Below are positions 10,272 through 21,001 of a DNA stretch of 64,000 nucleotides, piece by piece. The notes under the pieces were generated by a model. The model ran no database searches. It saw only the letters and a list, made by a program, of their open reading frames with translations, and had not been told where the DNA came from. The stretch is from Thermogutta terrifontis (lineage in GTDB: Bacteria; Planctomycetota; Planctomycetia; Pirellulales; Thermoguttaceae): positions 4,175,206 to 4,239,205 of the forward strand of contig NZ_CP018477.1 of the NCBI RefSeq assembly GCF_002277955.1, read 5' to 3'. Position 1 is the stretch's first letter; every line of letters starts with the position of its first letter. The position numbers and the translations under genes were made by a program.

Positions 10272-11153
10272 ATGAGCATCTTGGTTAACAAAGGCACACG
10301 GGTCATTTGTCAGGGAATCACAGGCAAGGCTGGAAGATTTCACACCCAGCAGTGCCTGGCTTATGGCACCCAGGTCGTTGGCGGGGTCACGCCAGGGAAG
10401 GGAGGAACCACCGTCGACGGGGTGCCCGTATTCGACACTGTGGAAGAGGCGGTGCGCTCCACGGGTGCTGACGCGACGATGATATTTGTGCCACCACCCT
10501 TTGCGGCCGATGCCATCCTGGAAGCCGTGGATGCAGGAATTAAGCTGATCGTCGCGATTACGGAGGGTATTCCCACTTTGGACATGGTCCGCGTCATGCC
10601 GGTTGTCCGCCGAGCCGGGGCCCGACTTATTGGACCCAATTGCCCCGGAGTGATTACCCCCGGCGAATGTAAAATTGGGATCATGCCGGGTTACATCCAC
10701 AGGCCGGGACGCATTGGGGTGGTCAGCCGATCAGGAACATTAACGTACGAGGCTGTGTGGCAGTTAACGCAGAGGGGACTCGGCCAATCGACCTGCATAG
10801 GCCTGGGAGGAGATCCCGTCGTGGGAACGAGCTTTATTGATGTGCTGGAACTGTTTGCCGCCGATTCCCAAACCGAAGGTGTTTTCCTGATTGGGGAAAT
10901 TGGCGGAAATGCAGAGGAACTCGCCGCAGAATATATCGCCAAGCACTTCCCCAAGCCGGTAGCAGCGTTCATTGCGGGAAGAACGGCCCCGCCGGGCAAA
11001 CGGATGGGCCATGCAGGGGCCGTCATCTCGGGTGGAAAGGGGACCGCAGATGATAAAATCAGGGCCTTGAAAGCGGCCGGCATCGAAGTCGCCGAAAGCC
11101 CGGCGGACATGGGCGAGGCAATGGAACGGGCATTGAAAAAGTGGCGGCGATGA
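10272..11153 (+). CDS. sucD: Succinyl-CoA ligase, alpha subunit
   Basis: 293 residues. The CoA-binding Rossmann domain ([29 protein letters not shown]) is followed by the ligase domain. The active-site histidine that becomes phosphorylated is His247 in [29 protein letters not shown] and SRSGTLTYE are also family hallmarks. It pairs with the upstream beta subunit to form the enzyme. It converges on the sigma-factor gene, with a hairpin between the two genes. Confidence 0.97.
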
Positions 11154-11164
11154 CGCCCGTTCGC

Positions 11165-11190
11165 GGCTGCCCAATCGCGGCAGCCTATAT
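11165..11190. terminator. Putative bidirectional terminator between sucD and the sigma factor
   Basis: A perfect 7-bp stem GGCTGCC/GGCAGCC (11165-11171 with 11179-11185) with a 7-base loop, followed by TATATTTG. It lies between convergent genes. The T-run is short, so efficiency is uncertain. Confidence 0.45.
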
Positions 11191-11215
11191 TTGACTGGCC
11201 TAACTTGACAGCGGA

Positions 11216-12070
11216 TCACTGAGGGTCGCCTTCCAGAGCGCGGGCAAGCTTCTGAAGCGCCTCGGTTTCGATTTGCCGGACCCGCTCTCGAGTGAGACCC
11301 AGAATCTCCCCGATTTCCTTGAGGGTTTTAGGCTGCTTGTCGTCCAGACCAAATCGCATTCGCAAAACGGCAGCCTCTCGCGGGTCCATGTCTTTCAGTT
11401 TTTCCCGAATATGATTGAGGCTGTCGTGGGTGACGAGTTCTTCGTCGGGAGGACGGAATCGCTCGTCCTCCAGCATTTCCCCAAGCGACCATCCGTTGTC
11501 CGACTGATCTGTCTGCGGTGTCAGGTTGTAGATCCGAATCGCCTTCTTAATAATACCCAACTTCTTGCGAGGTATTCCCAGAACTCGGGCGACTTCTTCT
11601 GGAGTGGGTGTTCGCCCCAGCTCTTCGGCGAGCCGCGTGCTGGCTCTTCGCCATTTGGATAGCAGTTCCACCATATACGCGGGAATTCGCACAGTTTTCC
11701 CGCAGTTGATGAGTGCCCGCTTGATGGACTGTTTGATCCAGTAACTGGCATAAGTGGAAAACCGAGTACCGATGGCGGGATCGTATCCCTCTACCGCACG
11801 CAGTAACCCCAGATTTCCCTCCTCAATGAGGTCCTGCAGGCTGAGGCCTTTACCTACGTAGTTTCGGGCAATGTTGACTACGAGACGGAGATTCGCGCGA
11901 ACCATTCGGTCTCTCGCTACCGGATCGCCATTTCCGATGGCGATGGCGAGCTCCATCTCCTCCTCAGGGGTAAGAAGGGGGGTTTCGTTAATCTCGCGGA
12001 GATACGACTCCAGTGGTGAATGCACATCATGATCCTCGGAGTACCGTCGTTTCGTCTTGGCCTTCTTCAT
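11216..12070 (-). CDS. RNA polymerase sigma-70 family factor (group 2-like)
   Basis: 284 residues. Region 1.2 is SPLESYLREINETPLLTPEEE; region 2 contains VRANLRLVVNIARNYV, DLIEEGNLGLLRAVEGYD and FSTYASYWIKQSIKRAL; region 3 follows (IPAYMVELLSKWRRA); region 4 ends with TLKEIGEILGLTRERVRQIE. It lacks the long region 1.1 and the non-conserved insertion of the primary RpoD, so it is best called a group 2/RpoS-like alternative sigma factor. It is monocistronic on the minus strand. Confidence 0.9.
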   Translation of the reverse strand: MKKAKTKRRYSEDHDVHSPLESYLREINETPLLTPEEEMELAIAIGNGDPVARDRMVRANLRLVVNIARNYVGKGLSLQDLIEEGNLGLLRAVEGYDPAIGTRFSTYASYWIKQSIKRALINCGKTVRIPAYMVELLSKWRRASTRLAEELGRTPTPEEVARVLGIPRKKLGIIKKAIRIYNLTPQTDQSDNGWSLGEMLEDERFRPPDEELVTHDSLNHIREKLKDMDPREAAVLRMRFGLDDKQPKTLKEIGEILGLTRERVRQIETEALQKLARALEGDPQ

Positions 12071-12603
12071 AGGTGCTCAACTGACATTGGAACGACATTG
12101 AGACTCCCTGACCCAATCAACCTATCGACCCTTCACAGAGGTTTCCTGCACGTCGTTGGAAAACTGACAAGCTAAACCGACGCAATTGGTTGTACGGAAT
12201 GTGATGACGACGTCAGGTTTGAGTGGTTGCGGAGATCGTGCCCGCTGTAGGGGAGGGCAGGAAAGACGGACTACCCAACTGGCTGGGCCCAGCCCGAGTC
12301 AGACGCCTTGCCATACCTGTGGAAACTGATAAACTGATGTTAGATGGAACTAGGTGCCCGATCCCCGCTCCGGTTGCACCAGCCTGGATTGGCTTGGGGA
12401 TTAGACTCTCCGAGCAGGTGCGGCCCCAGGGGTGGAGAACCCCATGTGTATTTTTCGGGCCTCATTTGCATCATAGGGTGAAATAACGCTGATGGTGCGA
12501 TGCCCCCCATGCGGGTCGGGTGCCAATGTCCCATCAAAGATGCCAGTAGAGGAAAAAGACACTCCATTACTGGGAAATAATGTCCCATGGTGGGGTGATG
12601 TAC
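12071..12603. other. Intergenic region upstream of the sigma factor and tRNA-Ser
   Basis: 533 bases without a convincing gene. It must hold the promoters of the minus-strand sigma gene and of tRNA-Ser, but no clear -35/-10 pair is visible. A 14-bp perfect palindrome (GGCTGGGCCCAGCC) lies at 12281-12294. The plus-strand frame at 12223-12486 has no ribosome site and low-complexity translation, and I do not regard it as a gene. Confidence 0.5.
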
Positions 12604-12691
12604 GGAGAGGTGGCCGAGTGGTCTAAGGCGCGGGTTTGCTAAATCCGTAGGGGTGTTCAACCCCTCGCAGGTTCGAATCCTGTCCTCTCCG
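12604..12691 (+). tRNA. tRNA-Ser(GCT)
   Basis: A complete class II tRNA. The acceptor stem GGAGAGG (12604-12610) pairs with CCTCTCC (12684-12690). The anticodon arm has GCT in the loop TTGCTAA. A long variable arm AGGGGT/ACCCCT marks it as serine, and the T-loop is TTCGAAT. CCA is not encoded. The 3' end is the integration site of the adjacent element and overlaps the antisense 3' end of the integrase gene. Confidence 0.97.
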
Positions 12692-14036
12692 CTAAGTTAT
12701 GTTGTACCAATAAGTTACGACTCGCAGGGCGTTGCATAATGTCGCAATTGAACAGGCTTTGGGATTCAAAGTTCTCTATCTTGCAACCCCTTGCGGGAGC
12801 CTGCTGTGCCGTATTTTGTGCCACCCGTGTGCCGGATTCTGTGCCACTGTTCGTTTGAACACCAGTGGTGTCCGGCTGTACACGGTTCGAGTCCACTTTG
12901 GTCTTGGGCCTCCACTGGAGGGCTACCTGGTATGCCGCATCCGTGGGATCCACATAATGGCGTAACGCGATAGAGGGGGTATTGCCCAACCACTTGGTGA
13001 CCACGGCCAGAGGAAACGCTTGGGCTAGATCGGATTCACACGAAGCCCGTAAATTGTGCCAGAGTCTTGGCCATGGTTCCAATCCCGCCCGGCGGATTAT
13101 CTTCTCAAAGGTAGTTCGCAGGTTGCAGTTGATCCAGCCGGCCGGGCCTTGAGCACGGCGGCGGTATTCCTCCGGGAACACGTATTCCGCCCCGGGTAAC
13201 GTGGCGTCCCAGGCCTCTTCCAGGTAGGGCTTCAGCAGAGGAAACATCGGTATGACGCGGTAGGGCTTCCCCTTACTGGCCGTCTTCGGTGAGGATACCA
13301 CGATCCGGCCATCCGCCCAGTTGACGTCCGCCCAACGTAGAGAGAATGCTTCCGATGGGATCCGCAATCCACCGAAGCGGGCGAGGGCGATGAGAAGCCG
13401 CCACCATACGTTGGGGGCGTTCTCAATCAGCCGGAGTGTGTCCTCTACGCTCACGTAGACGCGCCGGCCTGATGGATCGCCTGCCCGATGCGTGACGAAT
13501 CCAAAAGGATTGCCCTGGATCAACCCCATCCGCTGAGCGTGGGCAAAGAACATCCGGGCAAACTGCAGCCGCTTGTTGATCGTGGTATCAGCCAACCCCT
13601 GCCCCATCAGATACTGGCGGAAGGCCTCCGCTTTCTCTGGCGTGATATCCGCAAGCCGACACTCCCGCCCGAAGAAGTCGCAAAGGTTGCGGATCGTATG
13701 GCCCCACACGATCCTTGTAGCGGGGGCATACGTTGCGGTGCGAGTCGCTAAGTAAGCCTCCAGATACGAGCCAAGCTTTGCTGTGGCTGCCGAGTCAATC
13801 AACCCCGCCTTGGCCAATTTCTCTTTGAGGGCCTCACCGATCGTGTTCAACCAGGTTGCGGTGGCCTGCTGGACCGGTAAGCCGCTGATGCGGGAAGCCA
13901 GCAACGCCTCCACGTGGACACGGATGCTCTCCGCCGTCTTTTTGTCCACACGGCCAAGGCGAAGGGTTTTCCGCTTGCCATCGGGAGCCACAAAGAGGAT
14001 TCGCCAGCCTTTGCCATCTTTTGCTACGCTTGCCAT
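12657..14036 (-). CDS. int: Tyrosine recombinase/integrase of the tRNA-Ser element
   Basis: 459 residues from the ATG at 14036, which has GGAG eight bases upstream; a longer frame to 14069 lacks a ribosome site. An N-terminal AP2-like domain (SVAKDGKGWRILFVAPDGKR) is followed by a SAM-like core-binding domain and the catalytic domain. Catalytic residues from this start are Arg225 (GGLRIPSE), Lys251, His327 and Arg330 (HNLR) and the nucleophile Tyr361 (RHYVDPTD). The usual second His of LGH is Asn (WLGN). The last 11 codons (AERTGFEPARG) and the stop are antisense to the 3' end of tRNA-Ser, so this tail comes from the attachment site itself. It should catalyse integration and excision at tRNA-Ser. 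Confidence 0.93.
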   Translation of the reverse strand: MASVAKDGKGWRILFVAPDGKRKTLRLGRVDKKTAESIRVHVEALLASRISGLPVQQATATWLNTIGEALKEKLAKAGLIDSAATAKLGSYLEAYLATRTATYAPATRIVWGHTIRNLCDFFGRECRLADITPEKAEAFRQYLMGQGLADTTINKRLQFARMFFAHAQRMGLIQGNPFGFVTHRAGDPSGRRVYVSVEDTLRLIENAPNVWWRLLIALARFGGLRIPSEAFSLRWADVNWADGRIVVSSPKTASKGKPYRVIPMFPLLKPYLEEAWDATLPGAEYVFPEEYRRRAQGPAGWINCNLRTTFEKIIRRAGLEPWPRLWHNLRASCESDLAQAFPLAVVTKWLGNTPSIALRHYVDPTDAAYQVALQWRPKTKVDSNRVQPDTTGVQTNSGTESGTRVAQNTAQQAPARGCKIENFESQSLFNCDIMQRPASRNLLVQHNLAERTGFEPARG

Positions 14037-14204
14037 AGGATGCTCCTTTTTGCTTGTTGGCACTGTCAACTGCTATTGGATACACTAGGCCGCTACAAAG
14101 CAACCCACAGAGAAAACGTGGAAAGAAAGTGTGGTCGAAGGCCCGGTGGTTCCCGCCCGCCCTCGCGAGGGGATAGTGCTGGGTAGGACCCGTTGGGGTT
14201 GGAA

Positions 14205-14239
14205 GGGGAAAAAGAACCGCCCGAGAGTAACTCGGGCGG
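14205..14239 (-). terminator. Intrinsic terminator after the capsid gene
   Basis: On the minus strand a perfect 9-bp stem CCGCCCGAG/CTCGGGCGG (14217-14225 with 14231-14239) with a 5-base loop is followed by TTCTTTTTCCCC. It lies just downstream of the capsid-fusion stop and upstream of the integrase gene, separating the structural genes from int. Confidence 0.8.
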
Positions 14240-14274
14240 GTAAGCAGAAGGAGACGGTGACGGAGATGCCGGTG

Positions 14275-16101
14275 TCAGGCACCGGATGCTTTCACGGCAC
14301 ACCGCCAGTCCGCGGCAGCCGCTCCTATATCGATGTAGCATCGCCAGCCGGTGCCAAGCTTATCCGCTCCGGGGTCCACTGGTTCGATGGTTGGCCCCTG
14401 TTGGCCATTCAAGAAGGCCACAAGGAAGCTACCATCCGCAGGGCCGCAGAGCAGATACCAGGCAGCGGTGCTGTTACCAGGGAAGTACGTATTACTCAGC
14501 CGTGGCTCGACCTCTAACGCGATGTTCAGGCCAGCGAAGGGATTACCAGCAGGGAGCTGGTCTCCGCCCGAGCGGTAGAGTTCGACACTGTTGAGCACTT
14601 GCCGGGCGGTCGCCTCCAGTTCGGGTGGGACGAGAAGAACACGGGGCACCAGGTCCAGCGGCAAGCCGTCGGCGTCCGTTTGTTTGCGTAGGGCCGCGAT
14701 GGCTTCGGCAAGGCTGGCGACACTCAGCCCAGATTCCGCACCAGTAATCAGGTTGCTGTGGGCAGCGGAGAAAAAACCGCCCGGATTACTGAGAAGCACC
14801 GTGTAAACCAGATCGGCCACCTTCCGCGCAGCGGCACGTCCGAAGATCGTGGGGATTTGGTCCAGGATCGCGATGTCATCATTGATGATGTGTTGGCGGT
14901 CCAGCATGAGCATTTTGGCGTAGGTGGTCACCTTGTAAGTGATGGTTTCCTCTCCCACATTGGCGTGCCTAATTTCGCCGTGGGCGGCCAGCTCTTCAAG
15001 TTTGAAGTCACCGGTCAAGCGGATACCAGTATGTTCCTTGAAATCCTTGGCCGACACAATCCGGGCAAAGGATTTCCATGTCGCGGGGGCTTGCTGGTAG
15101 GCATCGAGGGCGATTTTGTTGGCCGCCACACCCAGGGCAACGGGCAAGTCTGTCGTGGAGAAAGCCGCCCGAATAATCTCGTTGGTTCCCCGGGGGGCAT
15201 AGCCCAAACTCATTTGACAAGCCATGCCGCAAAGATCAAGAGCGGTTCGCGGCTTGTAGCTGGCAGCCGCCGATAGAGTCTCCGCACCAAGTTCCTTTTC
15301 CGCCAATGACTCTTTACCAAGCAGTTTCAAGGCGGCGGCGGCAAGGATGGAAGCGGGTGTGTCCTTGACCTCAGCATTGAGTACTGGAGGAATCACCGGG
15401 CGGCGGCGGGTCTCAGCGAGAGCTTTCGCGGTCTCAAGTGGCAACCGGTTTTCGATGGCTTGCCTGAATGTGCTCATGTCATCTCCGCACACAGAGAGTA
15501 AGTCCAGGATATATTTCGCCTCGATCGTCTCACCAGGTGACGAGTTCTCAGGGGGAGCTGGTTGGTGTGTCATATTCCTCACTCCTGCTGCTAACGTGAC
15601 CATCGTCTGTTTGTCCGCTCCCAGCGGGACAACTGAAACTTCCCGGAGGATTCCACCCTCGATAAGAAAAGTGTCTGATTCGACAGTGATTGTTTGCCCG
15701 TTGACCGTGATGGTATCCCCAGGCTTCAACGGCCGGTATTGGTTCGTTTCAACACCCACACTGGCCTGCAAGGGGACGTCATCTTTCAGTAGAGCAATGA
15801 CGAGTTTGCCGGCGTCCGTGGCTTCTGTTACCGTACCGTCAATCACTAAGGTTTTTCCGTCGGTTTTAGGTATTCCCCAACCAATGGTGGCTTCGGTACG
15901 GCCTTCGTGATCCAAGAGCAGAGTAACCCGCTGCGGTAAATCAAGGCCCTGCAGATCGATGATGACCGGTCCCCACCCCGGCACAGTCATGATGCCCCCG
16001 GTGTAGGCCGTGATGCGTACCTTAACTGGCTTCTTTTCCTTTTCGGCCTCAACAATTAACGGGGCGGCTTTTAGTTGGAGGGTTCTTGTTGCGGTCGTCA
16101 T
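14275..16101 (-). CDS. Prohead protease/major capsid protein fusion
   Basis: 608 residues. The N-terminal part (about 25-175) resembles HK97-type (S78) prohead proteases: a candidate catalytic His65 in LLLDHEG, Ser114 in LQASVGVE, and the strand REVSVVPLGAD that often ends this domain. A linker follows, then residues about 230-608 resemble the Mu gpT-like major head subunit (TYAKMLMLDRQHIINDD, AARKVADLVYTVLLSN, LLVPPELEATARQVL). The fused layout implies that the protease first acts as scaffold or processes itself out of the precursor. It starts 3 bases after the preceding gene and is followed by a terminator. It is the only structural phage gene in the element. Confidence 0.85.
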   Translation of the reverse strand: MTTATRTLQLKAAPLIVEAEKEKKPVKVRITAYTGGIMTVPGWGPVIIDLQGLDLPQRVTLLLDHEGRTEATIGWGIPKTDGKTLVIDGTVTEATDAGKLVIALLKDDVPLQASVGVETNQYRPLKPGDTITVNGQTITVESDTFLIEGGILREVSVVPLGADKQTMVTLAAGVRNMTHQPAPPENSSPGETIEAKYILDLLSVCGDDMSTFRQAIENRLPLETAKALAETRRRPVIPPVLNAEVKDTPASILAAAALKLLGKESLAEKELGAETLSAAASYKPRTALDLCGMACQMSLGYAPRGTNEIIRAAFSTTDLPVALGVAANKIALDAYQQAPATWKSFARIVSAKDFKEHTGIRLTGDFKLEELAAHGEIRHANVGEETITYKVTTYAKMLMLDRQHIINDDIAILDQIPTIFGRAAARKVADLVYTVLLSNPGGFFSAAHSNLITGAESGLSVASLAEAIAALRKQTDADGLPLDLVPRVLLVPPELEATARQVLNSVELYRSGGDQLPAGNPFAGLNIALEVEPRLSNTYFPGNSTAAWYLLCGPADGSFLVAFLNGQQGPTIEPVDPGADKLGTGWRCYIDIGAAAADWRCAVKASGA

Positions 16102-16104
16102 TTC

Positions 16105-16494
16105 TCAGTTTGATTTTGCGTTGGCTAGTTGCAAAATCCGGTTTTTGTATTGGGGGTTTTGTTCTAAGAGGTGGTTCACGAGCGTGGGCTTTGCCCGCTT
16201 TGTTTTCACGCACCACTCAAAAAAGCACTCGGCCAGAGGGAGGGAGAAAAAGGTGTTTTCGGGCGTCACTGGCTCCCCGTCGCTCCACTTCCCTCCCGTG
16301 ATCTCACGCAACCAATCCTCAATGTCCTGGCGGGTGATGATCAATCCACGCCCCTCAGCCTCACTGATAAGACCTGTTCCCAACATCGGCCAGCGGGCAG
16401 CCAACAAGGTTTGAATCTGGCTTTGCGTCAACCCATAGCGTTTTAATGCTAGGGTGGCGATGGCTTCGTATTCTTCATTGCTCAGGTACTGCAT
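16105..16494 (-). CDS. Small protein of unknown function in the satellite element
   Basis: 129 residues from the ATG at 16494, which has AAGGAG eight bases upstream. I do not recognise a family. The sequence is helical, with an N-terminal segment (YEAIATLALKRYGLTQSQI) that could be a helix-turn-helix-like bundle, and an ITRQDIEDWLREI segment in the middle. It overlaps the 3' end of the zinc-ribbon gene by 20 bases and ends 3 bases before the capsid fusion, so translation is probably coupled. A role in capsid assembly or regulation is possible from position only. Confidence 0.7.
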   Translation of the reverse strand: MQYLSNEEYEAIATLALKRYGLTQSQIQTLLAARWPMLGTGLISEAEGRGLIITRQDIEDWLREITGGKWSDGEPVTPENTFFSLPLAECFFEWCVKTKRAKPTLVNHLLEQNPQYKNRILQLANAKSN

Positions 16495-16738
16495 TGGCTT
16501 TCTCCTTGCTCTCACTGTCATTGTAGTGGGCCTCTGCCCTGTTTTGCGGGCTGTTGGGGGAGTCGCATTGTACGGGTACAGTGTTTTTCTTCCCCCATCC
16601 GCAACTCCGACACTTCAGATAGCGGATGCGATACAGGCCCACTTGCTTACTGGTTCTGACGATCACTTCGGCACCACATTGTGGGCATACTCTCCAGGCG
16701 TAACGTGCTATAACGATAGGGATGAGTGGGTGGGACAT
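16475..16738 (-). CDS. Ogr/Delta-like zinc-ribbon protein
   Basis: 87 residues, with GGAG eight bases before the ATG. It carries C-P-x-C at residues 18-21, then six residues to R-T-S, then eight to R-Y, two to C, and a final C-x-x-C-G pair. This spacing closely follows the Ogr/Delta zinc fingers of phages P2 and P4 (CPxC-x6-RTS-x9-RY-x2-C). Those proteins activate late, structural promoters. Here the gene lies two positions upstream of the capsid fusion, a sensible place for a late-gene regulator. The tail after residue 55 is polar and probably disordered. The match is by eye; a generic zinc ribbon is the alternative. Confidence 0.6.
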   Translation of the reverse strand: MSHPLIPIVIARYAWRVCPQCGAEVIVRTSKQVGLYRIRYLKCRSCGWGKKNTVPVQCDSPNSPQNRAEAHYNDSESKEKANAVPEQ

Positions 16739-16829
16739 GAGAAGTCTCCTTACTGCTTTTCCAGGGGCGTTTTTTTGTGCGGGAACCTAGCTTCCCGATG
16801 CAAAATAGGGGTATCCGTGGGGTCCTTTT

Positions 16830-17393
16830 TCAGCCTCGCGCCGGCCTTTCCGGCTTGGTGAGGCACTCTTCCCGGCGGAGTGCCGCTTCCCTCACGAATC
16901 TTTCGGCAGCCTTCGGCCAATCCATGGGATCGATCTTGAGCAACCGGCAGGCGTCCAGTAGCAGGGCAACCGCGGAGTCGTGGAAAGTGTCGTAGAGTTC
17001 AAAGAGGGCCGGGAAGTCCGCGCGCTGTGTCGGCGTCCCCGTTGGCATGAGAACGTATCCCGGGCCGTATTCGCTTGGTTGCAACCGGATGGAATATCCC
17101 GCGTCCCAGAGTTTGTGAAGTAGCAGCCAACCGCCCACTTCCTCTTTGTGTGCCCGCAAGAGGGCTAGTTCCTCTTTGGTCAAGGCCTCCGGGGCTACGT
17201 GGAAGTGAAGTTCTCCACGTTCCCACGTGACGGACACTCCCGGGCGGTTGAGCACATGCAAGACGCCTTTGGGGGGAGTTCCGCATAGATTCACCCGCTG
17301 ACCCGCAGTGGGGGCGGTCACCTTGCCAGTGGAAGATTCCCTCTGAGTGGTGGTACAATCTAGCCACGCTAGTGGGTCGAGAGAGTTTCTCAT
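16830..17393 (-). CDS. TubC N-terminal docking-like domain protein
   Basis: 187 residues, with AGGGAAG upstream of the ATG. Residues about 42-95 (GVLHVLNRPGVSVTWERGEL, then L-x-V-A-P-E-A-L-T, LLRAHKEEVGGWL) have the pattern of the TubC docking-like domain, which is common next to primases in phage-related elements of many bacteria. The C-terminal half (FPALFELYDTFHDSAVALL) is helical and unrecognised. It lies just downstream of the iteron-like repeats and the ATPase gene. Its position suggests a replication-associated function; this is inference. Confidence 0.65.
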   Translation of the reverse strand: MRNSLDPLAWLDCTTTQRESSTGKVTAPTAGQRVNLCGTPPKGVLHVLNRPGVSVTWERGELHFHVAPEALTKEELALLRAHKEEVGGWLLLHKLWDAGYSIRLQPSEYGPGYVLMPTGTPTQRADFPALFELYDTFHDSAVALLLDACRLLKIDPMDWPKAAERFVREAALRREECLTKPERPARG

Positions 17394-17416
17394 AATTTCT
17401 TCCCTCTTACTTCTGG

Positions 17417-17607
17417 TTTCCGCATTTCCGCTAGTCGTAACTCTTGTTGAAAAAATGACTTAAGTGGAAAGTGCTGCGAATTTCCGCTAGTTTCCGCTTT
17501 TCGGCTAGTTGCCACGTTCGTGCCTTGTGGAAATGCCGAAATTAGTGGAAAGTAAGGCCAATTTCCGCTTTAGTTCTGTTCAATTCACAACTTGCGCCTA
17601 GCGGAAA
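17417..17607. repeat. Iteron-like cluster of TTTCCGCTAG motifs
   Basis: Eight or more copies of TTTCCGCTAG or close variants in both orientations: forward at 17417, 17425, 17481, 17491 and 17562, and reverse (TAGTGGAAA/CTAGCGGAAA type) at 17463, 17527, 17543 and 17598. They fill the gap between the ATPase and TubC-like genes and overlap the last codons of the ATPase gene. Dense short repeats beside a primase and an ATPase suggest an origin of replication or a multi-operator control site. Confidence 0.65.
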
Positions 17608-19091
17608 GTGAGAAACCGGGAGGAAGTAAAAACTTTTTCTGGTTCAGGGAGCACCCCCCGGCCGTGGTATTCCCCGATGATTCTCCAGGTGGCCGACTTA
17701 GGCCCTCCTCCGGGGGATACTTGCTCAATAGCTCCCTGTTCTGCTAGGGCGCGGAGGGCCTGTCGTGTCCACTGTGGGGTCATGCCACCAATGTCGGCCG
17801 CTTCCTTTGTCGAAAACTCCCCGTCCCCGACAGCCGCTTTCAGTTTTTCAAGCAAGCGTTCAAATGACGTGTGCACCTCCCGCCCCAGCAACCGAGCGGC
17901 GGGCCGTTGCAGTAGGCGATAGGCCACGTAGTAATCCGCCGGGTCGGCGATGATCGCCTCGCCATCCCGCTCGCGTTGGAACTGATGGGCGAGGGTACTC
18001 GCTCGAATCAGCGCCACACAGTGTCTTGCGATACGCCGGCACTCCGGTCTGTCCACCGGGAATTTTTCCGCGAGTTGTTCCGCAAACGGGATCACAACCT
18101 GCGGCGGGTGGCTGCCGATGAGCCGCTGAAAAGCCCAATGCTTCGCGATGAGCGTTTCGCAACCTCCACTTTGCGGCTTACTCGCATCGCTGAACACTTT
18201 CTTGACGACCCGGCTGGTCTGTTCCTCCGAGTCGTCGGAATTCAAGATCAGCATCCGCGACGCGTCCTCATCGAGAAGTTTGCTTTTTGTCGTGGATTCG
18301 CAAAACGCGACGGGGCCTTCCTGAATGACCACTTCCGTGGTCATCTGCCCATCCGGCCCGCGAGTGGCGACAGCCTTGACGAGCCGCCCTTCGCTGACCA
18401 GCTCTCGCCAGCTCCGGTTGGCGTCCACAACTTCGGGTGTTTCCCCCTGCGGGCGTTCACCCAGGGTCACGAAACGATGACGCAGGCTTCCCGGGGGAAG
18501 ATAGAACCAACTCTGCGGGCTGGCCTGAGTCAACTTGATTGTTGCTTCGGGAGGGAAGAGCGCGCCCACTTTCTGTAACACATGCGATTTTCCAGTGGAC
18601 GTGGGACCCACGATAACGGCCGCCAACGGGCTTGCCAGCAAACGGCTCACCCCCACGAGCCATACAGTCAAGGCTGTCTCGGCCTCTCCGGCAACACCCA
18701 GTGTGCAAACGTCGTCATAAACCTCCCGGAGTAATTCGGGGCTGTTTGCCATCCGCTCCGCCTCGGCGACGATCTCTGGCGGTGTTTTTTCTAACTCACG
18801 GCGGGCGATTTCAAAGGGATCAGTGGAATTGCCGTTGCCGCGGGCTGCCTGTTCTTTCGCCGCTTTATCCACTTCATCGGCTAGGTTAAGAAGCATGCCC
18901 TCGAACGCCCGGGCTAACTCCTGCCCCGGGCGCTGAAGCGTCTGCCCTAACCTCTCAAAAAAGCGTTTACGAGCGTTTGCGTTGTCAACATCAACTTTGT
19001 CACGGAACACTTCCGCCCCATTTTCCCATACCATGACGAGTCGGCGGACGGACCCGTTATGGGGAGTGACAACAAAATTCAGTGGAATCAT
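17598..19091 (-). CDS. P-loop ATPase with C-terminal winged-helix (replication helicase-like)
   Basis: 497 residues. The Walker A motif GPTSTGKS is at 162-169, after an N-terminal region of charged helices. The ATPase core includes LLDEDASRMLILNSDDSEEQ, which may include Walker B. Residues about 415-475 (FSTKEAADIGGMTPQWTRQALRAL) form a winged helix-turn-helix. Similar ATPases beside prim-pol genes act as replicative helicases or initiators of plasmids and satellites. Its ATG overlaps the stop of the primase gene by four bases, so the two are translationally coupled. Confidence 0.75.
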   Translation of the reverse strand: MIPLNFVVTPHNGSVRRLVMVWENGAEVFRDKVDVDNANARKRFFERLGQTLQRPGQELARAFEGMLLNLADEVDKAAKEQAARGNGNSTDPFEIARRELEKTPPEIVAEAERMANSPELLREVYDDVCTLGVAGEAETALTVWLVGVSRLLASPLAAVIVGPTSTGKSHVLQKVGALFPPEATIKLTQASPQSWFYLPPGSLRHRFVTLGERPQGETPEVVDANRSWRELVSEGRLVKAVATRGPDGQMTTEVVIQEGPVAFCESTTKSKLLDEDASRMLILNSDDSEEQTSRVVKKVFSDASKPQSGGCETLIAKHWAFQRLIGSHPPQVVIPFAEQLAEKFPVDRPECRRIARHCVALIRASTLAHQFQRERDGEAIIADPADYYVAYRLLQRPAARLLGREVHTSFERLLEKLKAAVGDGEFSTKEAADIGGMTPQWTRQALRALAEQGAIEQVSPGGGPKSATWRIIGEYHGRGVLPEPEKVFTSSRFLTFR

Positions 19092-19906
19092 TTGCGAAAC
19101 CTCCTGCGATGAGCGATAGCGCGAGACCAGGCCCGGTGAAATGCCGGCGGAAGCGACACAGGCCCAGTTGGGTACTTTGAAATGGACTTTGCGATGGCCA
19201 GTACTTCCCGCTCAGGAAGCGGCGGGCGACAACGCGACTGATTGGCCGCCAAAAGAGCGGCCGCTATCTCATCCTGTGAAAAGCCCAGTCGGCGGAGTCG
19301 GCCCGCAAGACGCGTCAGGCCGATATTTCTTTGCCCTTCGCAAAGGATCGAACCCTCTCGGGCCATTTCTTCGGCGGACTTCGGATCGGGGGCGTGTTCG
19401 ATGGCCTTCGCGGCGGCTTTCAGTGCTGCGTCCAGCCACTCCGGCGGCGGTGGGAGTTGATCGCGTGGCACAAGTGGCCGGATCCAGCGGTATGCTTTGC
19501 CGTTGACCAATGATGGTGGTGCCACCACATAGCCCCGTGGGCCTTTCGTATCGACCCCCGGGGCAATCACCCCAACTGAATTTCCCCAATCCGCCCTGAA
19601 GTAAAGATGAAAACCACCCCGCGGGGTTTGGACCAACGGGCACCCTGTGGCCTTCAGCTCCTGCCGGCGCTGGTCACCGGGCCACCCTGCCTCCAGGGCT
19701 GCTGGGTCGATGTCCAGCACAGAGAAGCCTTCTCCGGTTGCTATGCCCCAGTTGCACCCCGGAAACTCTGCCAGCCACTGGCGGACGGTCGCCTCGTCAC
19801 GGGCGGCCCGTTCCGGCCATCCTGGTAGGAGTGGACGCTTACTGCCGCAGTGAAGAGGGTGGACCCGGTAGCCCAGGCGTTGGTAGGTGAACAAAACTTG
19901 GCTCAC
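19088..19906 (-). CDS. Bifunctional DNA primase/polymerase (prim-pol)
   Basis: 272 residues from the GTG at 19906, which has AAGGAG six bases upstream; a TTG at 19927 is less likely. The prim-pol (AEP) domain shows YQRLGYRVHPLHCGSKRPL, the metal-binding SVLDIDP and the GGFHLYF strand with its His. The C-terminal section (EGQRNIGLTRLAGRLRRLGF to the end) resembles a PriCT domain. It makes primers, and possibly extends them, for element replication. It is coupled to the ATPase gene by a four-base overlap. Confidence 0.9.
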   Translation of the reverse strand: MSQVLFTYQRLGYRVHPLHCGSKRPLLPGWPERAARDEATVRQWLAEFPGCNWGIATGEGFSVLDIDPAALEAGWPGDQRRQELKATGCPLVQTPRGGFHLYFRADWGNSVGVIAPGVDTKGPRGYVVAPPSLVNGKAYRWIRPLVPRDQLPPPPEWLDAALKAAAKAIEHAPDPKSAEEMAREGSILCEGQRNIGLTRLAGRLRRLGFSQDEIAAALLAANQSRCRPPLPEREVLAIAKSISKYPTGPVSLPPAFHRAWSRAIAHRRRFRK

Positions 19907-20026
19907 GGGACGCTCCTTTCCAGGCAAACTGGGGTTGCGTCCACGCGGCCCAGAACCTAAAATATAAACGTCGGTTTAGGTTGTGGGGGTGGACGCACCC
20001 CACGGCGGCGGCGTCGGTCACTGGGA

Positions 20027-20251
20027 CTAGCGATCGACGCCCTTTTCTTTTGTGGTCTTCAGTTGGGAAGCAATCCACTCATCTAAGGCCCGCACGTCGT
20101 ACCGAATTAAGGCACCCACCCGGACGTACGGGATTTCCCCTCGGCGGCGTAAGTTGCCCAAATGGCTGGTGCTCACGCCCAACCGCCGGGCTGCCGTTTT
20201 TTCGTCGATCAGTACTTGCTCGGGCTGGCTTCCTGTCGCGTTCTGTCGCAT
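20027..20251 (-). CDS. Excisionase-like helix-turn-helix protein
   Basis: 74 residues from the ATG at 20251, which has GGAG nine bases upstream. The core VLIDEKTAARRLGVSTSHLG followed by LRRRGEIPYVRVGALIRY and DVRALDEWI is the MerR-like HTH_17 fold of excisionases and AlpA-type regulators. It is the first gene in the direction of transcription. It could direct integrase toward excision and also regulate the replication genes. AlpA-type control of int in P4-like satellites is known; which role applies here is not shown. Confidence 0.85.
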   Translation of the reverse strand: MRQNATGSQPEQVLIDEKTAARRLGVSTSHLGNLRRRGEIPYVRVGALIRYDVRALDEWIASQLKTTKEKGVDR

Positions 20252-21001
20252 GCGTTTACTCCGTAAGCTGGAACCACGAAACTGAAACAAAACCAACGCT
20301 TTTCTGTCAGTTTAGCAACGCTGCGCGATACAAATTTCGCTGTGTCTGTATGTGGTTCCATATGTGTAACTGGCTACGTGGAAGCTGGCGGTTAGCGGAA
20401 AAGACGTCCCATTGAGTTTAGGGCTGCCCAACACCGGGGGCACATATTGTGAAACACCGACAGAAAAGGGGCCGTTCGAGGTTACAATTTTCGGACAAGA
20501 TGTGTCAATGAGATGGCTTACTGTATTGCACCCCCCACAAGATGCAGGGCCACTTTTAGGTCCACCACCTTTGTGAGACGCGGAAAAAATCAGTGTTTTG
20601 AAAGTAAATTCGAATCCTCTCCAGGGCATTGATCCTTTTCCGTTTCTTTCCTATTGCGTGCTTTTCGATTTCAATAGCGTAGTTCTCAAAGCTTTCACGG
20701 GTGCGCCCTCGGGGGCGGCCCTTGTAAAACCTCGATTTAAAGCGATTTAAAGCCGTGCTTTTAAATTTAAAGCCGCCCTTTTAAAGAGAGGCGAGTTTAT
20801 CGACATTTCCGACACAGGCGGCGGGGCAGTGCTCGCAACAATTCCCCTCTCGTGGCACGTGGAACGCCTGACTCGCATCATCTCTCAAGTTGATTGCCGA
20901 TTCCGGACCTCTCCCCGGTCAACGATTTCCAGTTATACTCTGAGGAAACTCGACACCGGTCAGCCTCAAAAAGACACCTTTTTCGTGGAGAGGACGGATT
21001 C
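20252..21001. other. Right flank of the element and upstream region of the BNR gene
   Basis: 750 bases without a convincing gene. It should include the promoter of the excisionase-replication operon (minus strand), the candidate right attachment site at 20609-20618, the TTTAAA cluster at 20736-20785, and the leader of the BNR-repeat gene. The minus-strand frame 20312-20629 has no ribosome site and no recognisable motif. Confidence 0.5.
20733..20786. repeat. TTTAAA repeat cluster
   Basis: Five TTTAAA motifs at 20736, 20746, 20760, 20766 and 20780. The first two belong to a direct tandem repeat of CGATTTAAAG (20733-20742 and 20743-20752); the others form a near-palindromic block with GCTTT and AAAGC flanks. 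It is an AT-rich island in a GC-rich setting. Its function is unknown. Confidence 0.6.

Follow-up and report, generated by a model that had tools for sequence, protein, structure and literature searches.

A candidate phage satellite with its own capsid gene at a tRNA-Ser gene of the planctomycete Thermogutta terrifontis

An element of about 8 kb at a tRNA-Ser(GCT) gene of Thermogutta terrifontis was studied in a stretch of 64,000 nucleotides (NCBI RefSeq assembly GCF_002277955.1, contig NZ_CP018477.1, positions 4,175,206 to 4,239,205 of the forward strand), the whole of which is called the window. The element runs from the tRNA-Ser gene to about position 20,630 of the window, and all its genes lie on the minus strand, where they are transcribed in the order HTH_17, prim-pol, AAA ATPase, TubC_N-like, Zn ribbon, 138-aa, protease-capsid and integrase (Table 1). 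Pfam and PHROG searches together with ARAGORN bore out the initial annotation, which had described a one-strand element at a planctomycete tRNA-Ser with an integrase, an excisionase-like protein, a prim-pol, an ATPase and one capsid gene. Its claim that portal, terminase, tail and lysis genes are missing agrees with the matches of the eight element proteins at E 0.1, among which no portal, large-terminase, tail or lysis family was present and only the HTH_17 protein showed a weak resemblance to a small terminase subunit (TerS).

Table 1. Features of the element at tRNA-Ser(GCT), in window positions.
Feature	Position	Strand	Evidence
tRNA-Ser(GCT), left-end insertion site	12604..12692	+	ARAGORN
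Tyrosine integrase, C-terminal codons overlapping the tRNA 3' end	12657..14069	-	PF00589 E 1.3e-11; PHROG 1 E 1.1e-42
HK97-fold major capsid protein of 608 aa, maturation-protease domain at the N terminus	14275..16101	-	PF25209/Phage_capsid_4 E 1.1e-42; PHROG 4523 E 9.2e-71
138-aa protein, no family matched, directly upstream of the capsid gene	16105..16521	-	
Zn-ribbon protein, candidate late-gene activator	16475..16738	-	PF04606 below cut-off
TubC_N-like protein	16830..17393	-	Pfam match below cut-off
Repeat cluster, candidate origin (putative function)	17395..17620	.	TTTCCGCT/AGCGGAAA x5
AAA ATPase, candidate replicative helicase	17598..19091	-	weak AAA_22 E 5e-4, below cut-off
Prim-pol primase/polymerase	19088..19927	-	PF09250 E 2.9e-31 and PriCT_1
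HTH_17 protein, excisionase/AlpA-like regulator, weakly TerS-like too	20027..20296	-	PF12728 E 1.7e-10; PHROG 66 excisionase E 6.9e-10
Right end: tRNA-Leu(CAG) 3'-end copy, 21 bp	20609..20629	+	

The iteron-like repeats reported earlier were recovered as five copies of the 8-base motif TTTCCGCT/AGCGGAAA between 17425 and 17607, a region that takes in the ATPase gene end and the adjoining gap. From the 12 copies in the whole window about 0.05 would be expected per 241 bp, an expectation that is post hoc since the motif was picked after the repeats had been seen. Relatives of the ATPase are present in 37 of 392 planctomycete genomes, that of the window counted among them. In the window element no Pfam match to Phage_AlpA was obtained, HTH_17 being matched instead, and none to DUF5906, a prim-pol and a weak AAA match being found, so that replication proteins of the type of the phage-inducible chromosomal islands (PICIs) were not recognized; DUF5906 and D5_N do occur in the capsid-bearing relatives L073 and L092. 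The Ogr/Delta-like activator of the initial annotation survived in part: the Zn ribbon is there, and its resemblance to Ogr_Delta (PF04606; E 1.6e-4, 22.0 bits) lies below the cut-off of 26.3. In L069-L071, L073 and L080, open reading frames (ORFs) that resemble a Zn ribbon by cysteine pattern or by eye precede the capsid gene, and in some related phages such ORFs precede the portal gene.

The same tRNA-Ser is occupied in a second Thermogutta (Thermogutta sp. MAG-77, L250), where its left flank is likewise formed by genes for a sigma factor, sucD and sucC, and where the capsid and the integrase are 78% and 91% identical to those of the window element. Relatives at the same tRNA-Ser, which had been proposed as a check, therefore exist. 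The L250 sequence is a 6,992-base contig that begins within the capsid gene; it was found with an alignment as query, a single-sequence capsid query of the genome contigs having given no match. Between the two Thermogutta the synonymous divergence (dS) of the integrase is 0.31, and that of the three flanking host genes is 0.57, 0.89 and 0.62 (YN00). As the integrase lies below its host neighbours, it is concluded to have moved after the separation of the species.

The left end of the element lies in tRNA-Ser(GCT). The right end resembles tRNA-Ser over TTCGAATCCT and no further; its 21 bp at 20609-20629 match exactly the 3' end of tRNA-Leu(CAG), the tRNA that is occupied by another element of this genome (element B, below). 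A clean tRNA-Ser attL/attR pair was searched for between 17,000 and 24,000 and was rejected, the right end being the tRNA-Leu core. The presence of this core in place of a tRNA-Ser copy speaks of rearrangement. An inversion between the window element and element B was considered as its cause and dismissed, as no tRNA-Ser fragment lies at the left end of B (2,855-2,865 kb). An empty tRNA-Ser site, which had been suggested as a further check, was not demonstrated in the five stretches fetched from relatives (G392, G393, G394, G397 and G401), none of which matched the right flank of the window. Downstream of tRNA-Ser no integrase match was obtained over 1.38 kb in G393 (same genus) and 1.07 kb in G397 (same family), just 0.37 kb being inspectable in G394; in G401 (same family) the tRNA-Ser carries a different integrase (47%), and G392 is the occupied Thermogutta contig.

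Two more elements were found in the genome of the window element, which is called A where the three are compared. Element B lies at tRNA-Leu(CAG) near 2,861-2,870 kb. Its capsid gene does not differ from that of A at any of 1827 bases, the 138-aa protein is 100% and the Zn ribbon 95% identical, and the TubC-like protein is similar. B differs from A in having another ATPase (cluster c7; AAA_25 via a relative in L062) and an integrase that is 34% identical to that of A; it also encodes a small XRE-like protein, identified by eye. Element C, at tRNA-Arg(CCT) near 3,644-3,650 kb, has no capsid gene. It shares with A the ATPase (97% identical), the prim-pol (85%) and the TubC-like protein (89-91%), and 3 kb of the replication half are 93.5% identical. 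Judged by these identities, the window element is a mosaic in which the replication half resembles C and the capsid half resembles B, the junction falling within the TubC-like gene.

The genome also contains five integrase remnants (L018 9048-9749, L019 9902-10549, L020 9883-10555, L022 9484-9970 and L024 9197-9889), four of which sit at tRNA genes called by ARAGORN. All five share one internal deletion of about 215 codons relative to the window integrase, and some are frameshifted. Either a deleted form has spread or the deletion has recurred between short repeats. Element B is flanked by two long tandem arrays that repeat about every 66 bases (about 2,847.7-2,853.0 and 2,886.6-2,889.6 kb; L013-L016), which resemble clustered regularly interspaced short palindromic repeats (CRISPR) and are known from self-matches only.

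The capsid protein combines two functions in one chain. PHROG 4523 is annotated as 'major head and protease protein', and the N-terminal part of the protein matches head-maturation proteases. His65 and Ser114, which we take from the HK97 protease family to be the catalytic pair, are conserved without exception in two capsid alignments, of 12 and 43 rows. An AlphaFold model was obtained with a predicted local distance difference test score (pLDDT) of 84 and a predicted template-modelling score (pTM) of 0.58, and its shell part found as fold matches in the PDB the HK97-fold capsids of tailed phages, of SaPI1 and of EcCI2, a capsid-forming PICI (cf-PICI), and encapsulins too. Over 509 codons the capsid genes of the two Thermogutta differ by a nonsynonymous divergence (dN) of 0.13 and a dS of 1.33 (YN00), or 0.14 and 1.22 (NG86). 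Because dN/dS is about 0.10-0.11, the capsid is held to be under purifying selection. The match to encapsulins, together with the lack of a recognizable helper in the genome (below), would fit an encapsulin-like or transfer-agent-like particle that was domesticated by the host. This is the least likely of the explanations considered, as the capsid gene is adjoined by an integrase, a prim-pol, an HTH_17 gene and a tRNA site, retains a maturation-protease domain, and is shared between elements.

Capsid relatives were detected in 61 of 392 planctomycete genomes. From these 61, 40 capsid neighbourhoods were fetched, to which A and B were added. In 24 loci a portal gene is present, mostly with terminase, decoration and tail genes as well; these are prophages and their capsids are called class II. 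No portal was found in the other 18 (class I candidates, with A and B counted in the full set), among which L063 has no upstream sequence and L092 lacks the protease part. The portal-less locus L056 contains an ORF of 87 aa with a match to the beginning of the terminase profile. In L069 a tape-measure-like gene (11147-13609; PF20155 E 4e-16) was noticed directly downstream of the portal-less capsid gene.

In a tree of 41 capsids, from which element B was omitted as identical to A, the class changes 2 times, compared with 13.5 in shuffles. The window capsid and portal-less rows form a group of 14 rows (support 89/79, not starred), and L073, L075 and L092 group separately. When IMG/VR and GTDB loci were added (94 rows), a portal-less clade of 41 (98 in the Shimodaira-Hasegawa-like approximate likelihood ratio test, SH-aLRT) and a pair were obtained, with 3 changes, one of which is due to L094, a locus mislabelled as portal-less (a portal is present and the matched part lacks the protease domain). 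For this tree a row needed at least 450 matched residues and at least 1 kb of upstream sequence, near-copies were removed by shared 4-mers and the 50 portal rows were chosen at random. The trees would fit about two origins of portal-less capsids.

The genes upstream of the capsid follow the same division, as counted in rows de-duplicated on the last 250 residues. A portal lies directly upstream in none of the 68 clear class I capsids, whose scores are higher with the class I profile by 143 bits or more, and in 123 of the 131 class II capsids. Four more class I rows have a portal (4/72: L081, L125, L139 and L153), and these are score ties of 1 to 29 bits. Gene c50 is found directly upstream in 60 of 72 class I rows and in 2 of 131 class II rows; those two, L073 and L310, are also portal-less. 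L073, L075 and L092 score as class II and yet have no portal. The class I capsid gene is followed in L097 by phage tail genes and in L100 by a class II capsid gene without its protease half. Their gene order makes it likely that both are recombinants of satellite and phage.

These results bear on the possibility that the window element is a decayed prophage, that is an ordinary phage from which deletions removed the portal, terminase and tail genes and left one capsid gene. Its capsid is indeed homologous to capsids of complete planctomycete phages, and the integrase stubs at other tRNA genes show that decay happens in this genome. However, the portal-less capsids are one clade of 41 and a pair, so that the trees speak strongly against recent decay, most members of the clade have their own upstream gene c50, the capsid is under purifying selection, and modules are common to three elements. 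Decay is therefore regarded as very unlikely, and full phages from which this element arose simply by loss of genes, named at the outset as what would refute a satellite, were not what was found: the portal-less capsids share a neighbourhood of their own.

A large serine recombinase is encoded by 31 of the 53 class I elements with enough downstream sequence (domains checked in L062), and several of these relatives are inserted in phage genes. In L096, L175, L098 and L309 the large terminase gene (TerL) of a phage is split in frame at one site. Both halves are still there, separated by 10.3-10.7 kb, and the reading frame of the recombinase continues into the second half. The site corresponds to LVVIDDPQTDESA in the intact gene, which by convention we take to be the Walker B motif of TerL. 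In L254 TerL is split in frame at a different site, the halves being 11.5 kb apart, and the L101 element sits in the class II capsid gene of the phage itself, with about 10-12 codons of that gene left beyond the insertion. Such a class II capsid gene is present on the same contig in L175 as well as in L101. One side of an insertion only was seen in L302, L163, L187 and L209; the contigs of L187 and L209 start inside the recombinase so that a capsid is not visible, and L163 is possibly the same phage as L098. Not counted as embedded were L099 in gene c10 (weak match, 8e-6) and L102/L103 in a tail gene (left end only). The embedding shows that elements of class I occur together with class II phages in the same cells and genomes. 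It is considered probable, with some reserve, that planctomycetes hold an independent superfamily of capsid-carrying satellites with an old capsid lineage, some in tRNA genes and others, with large serine recombinases, inside the TerL ATPase motif of the helper, where they would keep packaging off until excision.

Some further observations were made on these loci. In the L060 element the capsid gene is immediately preceded by one for a sigma-70-region-2 protein, close to where the Zn ribbon lies in the window element; a homologue is present in L061, and L095 and L099 encode proteins that look similar by eye. In L226 (344-2738) and L245 (6411-9888) a serine recombinase gene precedes a portal fragment by 0.5-1.6 kb, with no class I capsid in view. 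Both portal fragments begin at portal position 307, and these are possibly other embedded elements. Near the class I element of L062 an ORF with a portal-like start (by eye) is fused to a serine recombinase (15320-17617).

The window element is interpreted as a PICI-like phage satellite of planctomycetes with its own capsid gene, to which we assign a probability of roughly 0.85. The satellite logic proposed in the initial annotation is supported by the portal-less capsid clade and by the elements with sister capsids that sit within phages of the related class. Several points weigh against this interpretation. The helper prophage that had been envisaged was not found: in the genome of the window no match was obtained to the class II portal profile, PF03237, PF05876 or PF04860, the last three of which were positive as controls in 6, 3 and 4 of 14 genomes. 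Of 16 genomes with a portal-less capsid, 7 also have a class II portal, as do 55 of 376 others, a modest association (Fisher p 0.006, or 0.025 without the weak G152 match) in a statistic that ignores relatedness and in which the 376 may include unfetched portal-less capsids. The copy in the window may be rearranged and immobile, its right end being no clean attR. The HTH_17 protein has a match to the 'terminase small subunit' family PHROG 57 (E 2.6e-5), weaker than that to the excisionase family PHROG 66 (6.9e-10); this may reflect a shared helix-turn-helix fold, and a TerS-like role is conceivable. The kinship with the embedded elements is distant: the window element lies in a tRNA gene and not in a phage gene, the capsids are about 42-44% identical, the integrase is not shared, and c50 is missing. 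Its 138-aa protein was tried as a c50 homologue and rejected (hhalign probability 1%, hidden Markov model score below zero). Finally, a lone capsid gene is not a mark of novelty: according to PMC10111431, 21 of 29 reference Gram-negative PICIs have a major capsid gene and do not require it for transfer. The gene content is in this respect less unusual than first stated.

If the window element is a satellite, the following course may be envisaged. The cell would be infected by a tailed phage whose head is related (TerL, portal, protease-capsid fusion, decoration and tail), the HTH_17 and Zn-ribbon proteins would turn the element on and the integrase would excise it from tRNA-Ser. Replication would start from the repeat cluster through the prim-pol and the ATPase. 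The protease-capsid protein would then form heads fitted to the element, or redirect heads to it, and these would be filled and tailed via the portal, terminase and tail of the helper. Because the capsid gene is the single morphogenesis gene kept, it is suggested that the element supplies the shell and the helper the portal, terminase and tail. That the capsid is used to build or redirect heads is slightly favoured. Within the satellite interpretation, the capsid could also interfere with head assembly of the helper or protect the host, and no satellite heads would be made. The capsid homologue Ccm of SaPIbov5 blocks phage via SaPI-sized capsids (PMC6092414) and PICI capsid genes are stated to be dispensable for transfer (PMC10111431). 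However, the protease and shell domains are both retained, with the His and Ser invariant, which interference alone would not seem to need, and this role is held to be a less likely one. A smaller shell, a mixed one and an interference device would all fit the sequence.

The interest of the element lies in part in its host. Most known phage satellites come from Pseudomonadota, Bacillota and some Actinomycetota. A literature search, which covered few subscription journals, found no report of phage satellites in Planctomycetota, nor any description of such a capsid lineage, of this class of recombinase or of the insertion site at Walker B. If the interpretation is true, satellite biology gains a new phylum, satellite and phage capsids can be distinguished by an old split, helper embedding evolved a further time with another recombinase class, and the role of a satellite's lone capsid gene becomes testable.

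P4-like satellites are defined by Sid/Psu and Delta, and P4 has the Delta/Ogr late activator. The window element resembles P4 in its tRNA-type integration, its own primase and a Zn ribbon of a type resembling Ogr/Delta. It differs in that the Ogr/Delta match is sub-threshold, that no match to Sid or Psu was found in the Pfam and PHROG searches of its proteins, and that it has a capsid gene. The large terminase, portal and tail genes by which a tailed prophage is recognized were not found in the element, in which, as in satellites in general, the genes for integration and replication are accompanied by an incomplete morphogenesis set. With Gram-negative PICIs such as EcCICFT073 and PmCI172 it has in common the presence of an integrase, a putative AlpA/HTH_17-type regulator, its own replication genes and the single capsid gene that is common, not universal, among them (PMC6092414 and PMC10111431). 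The two papers also give PICI sizes of 10-20 kb, compared with 8 kb here, a capsid homologue in PmCI172 besides the Ccm of SaPIbov5 (PMC6092414), and HTH_17 and AlpA placed in one category (PMC10111431). The window element is unlike these islands in its phylum, in a prim-pol with a separate AAA ATPase, in the fusion of protease and major capsid protein, in the Zn ribbon and in having no known helper. Like cf-PICIs it has its own capsid protein and head protease; unlike them, since they also encode portal, connectors and both terminase subunits (PMC10690885), it has no portal or large terminase, and only the weak TerS-like match of its HTH_17 protein. Helper-embedded PICIs (HE-PICIs) are satellites within the late genes of helper prophages, and in the text of PMC10111431 a proteobacterial search found phage surroundings only among Enterobacterales and in one integrase clade, with the word 'serine' absent. 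The HE-PICI 11capE is comparable to the elements with sister capsids, which sit in frame in phage late genes and have their own capsid gene; late-gene insertion was seen for L096, L175, L098, L309, L254 and L101 and not for the window element itself. Unlike HE-PICIs, the embedded sisters use large serine recombinases, mainly at the Walker B site of TerL. Satellites with a lone capsid gene are thus of a kind already known, and what is new is the phylum, the capsid lineage and the embedding by serine recombinases.

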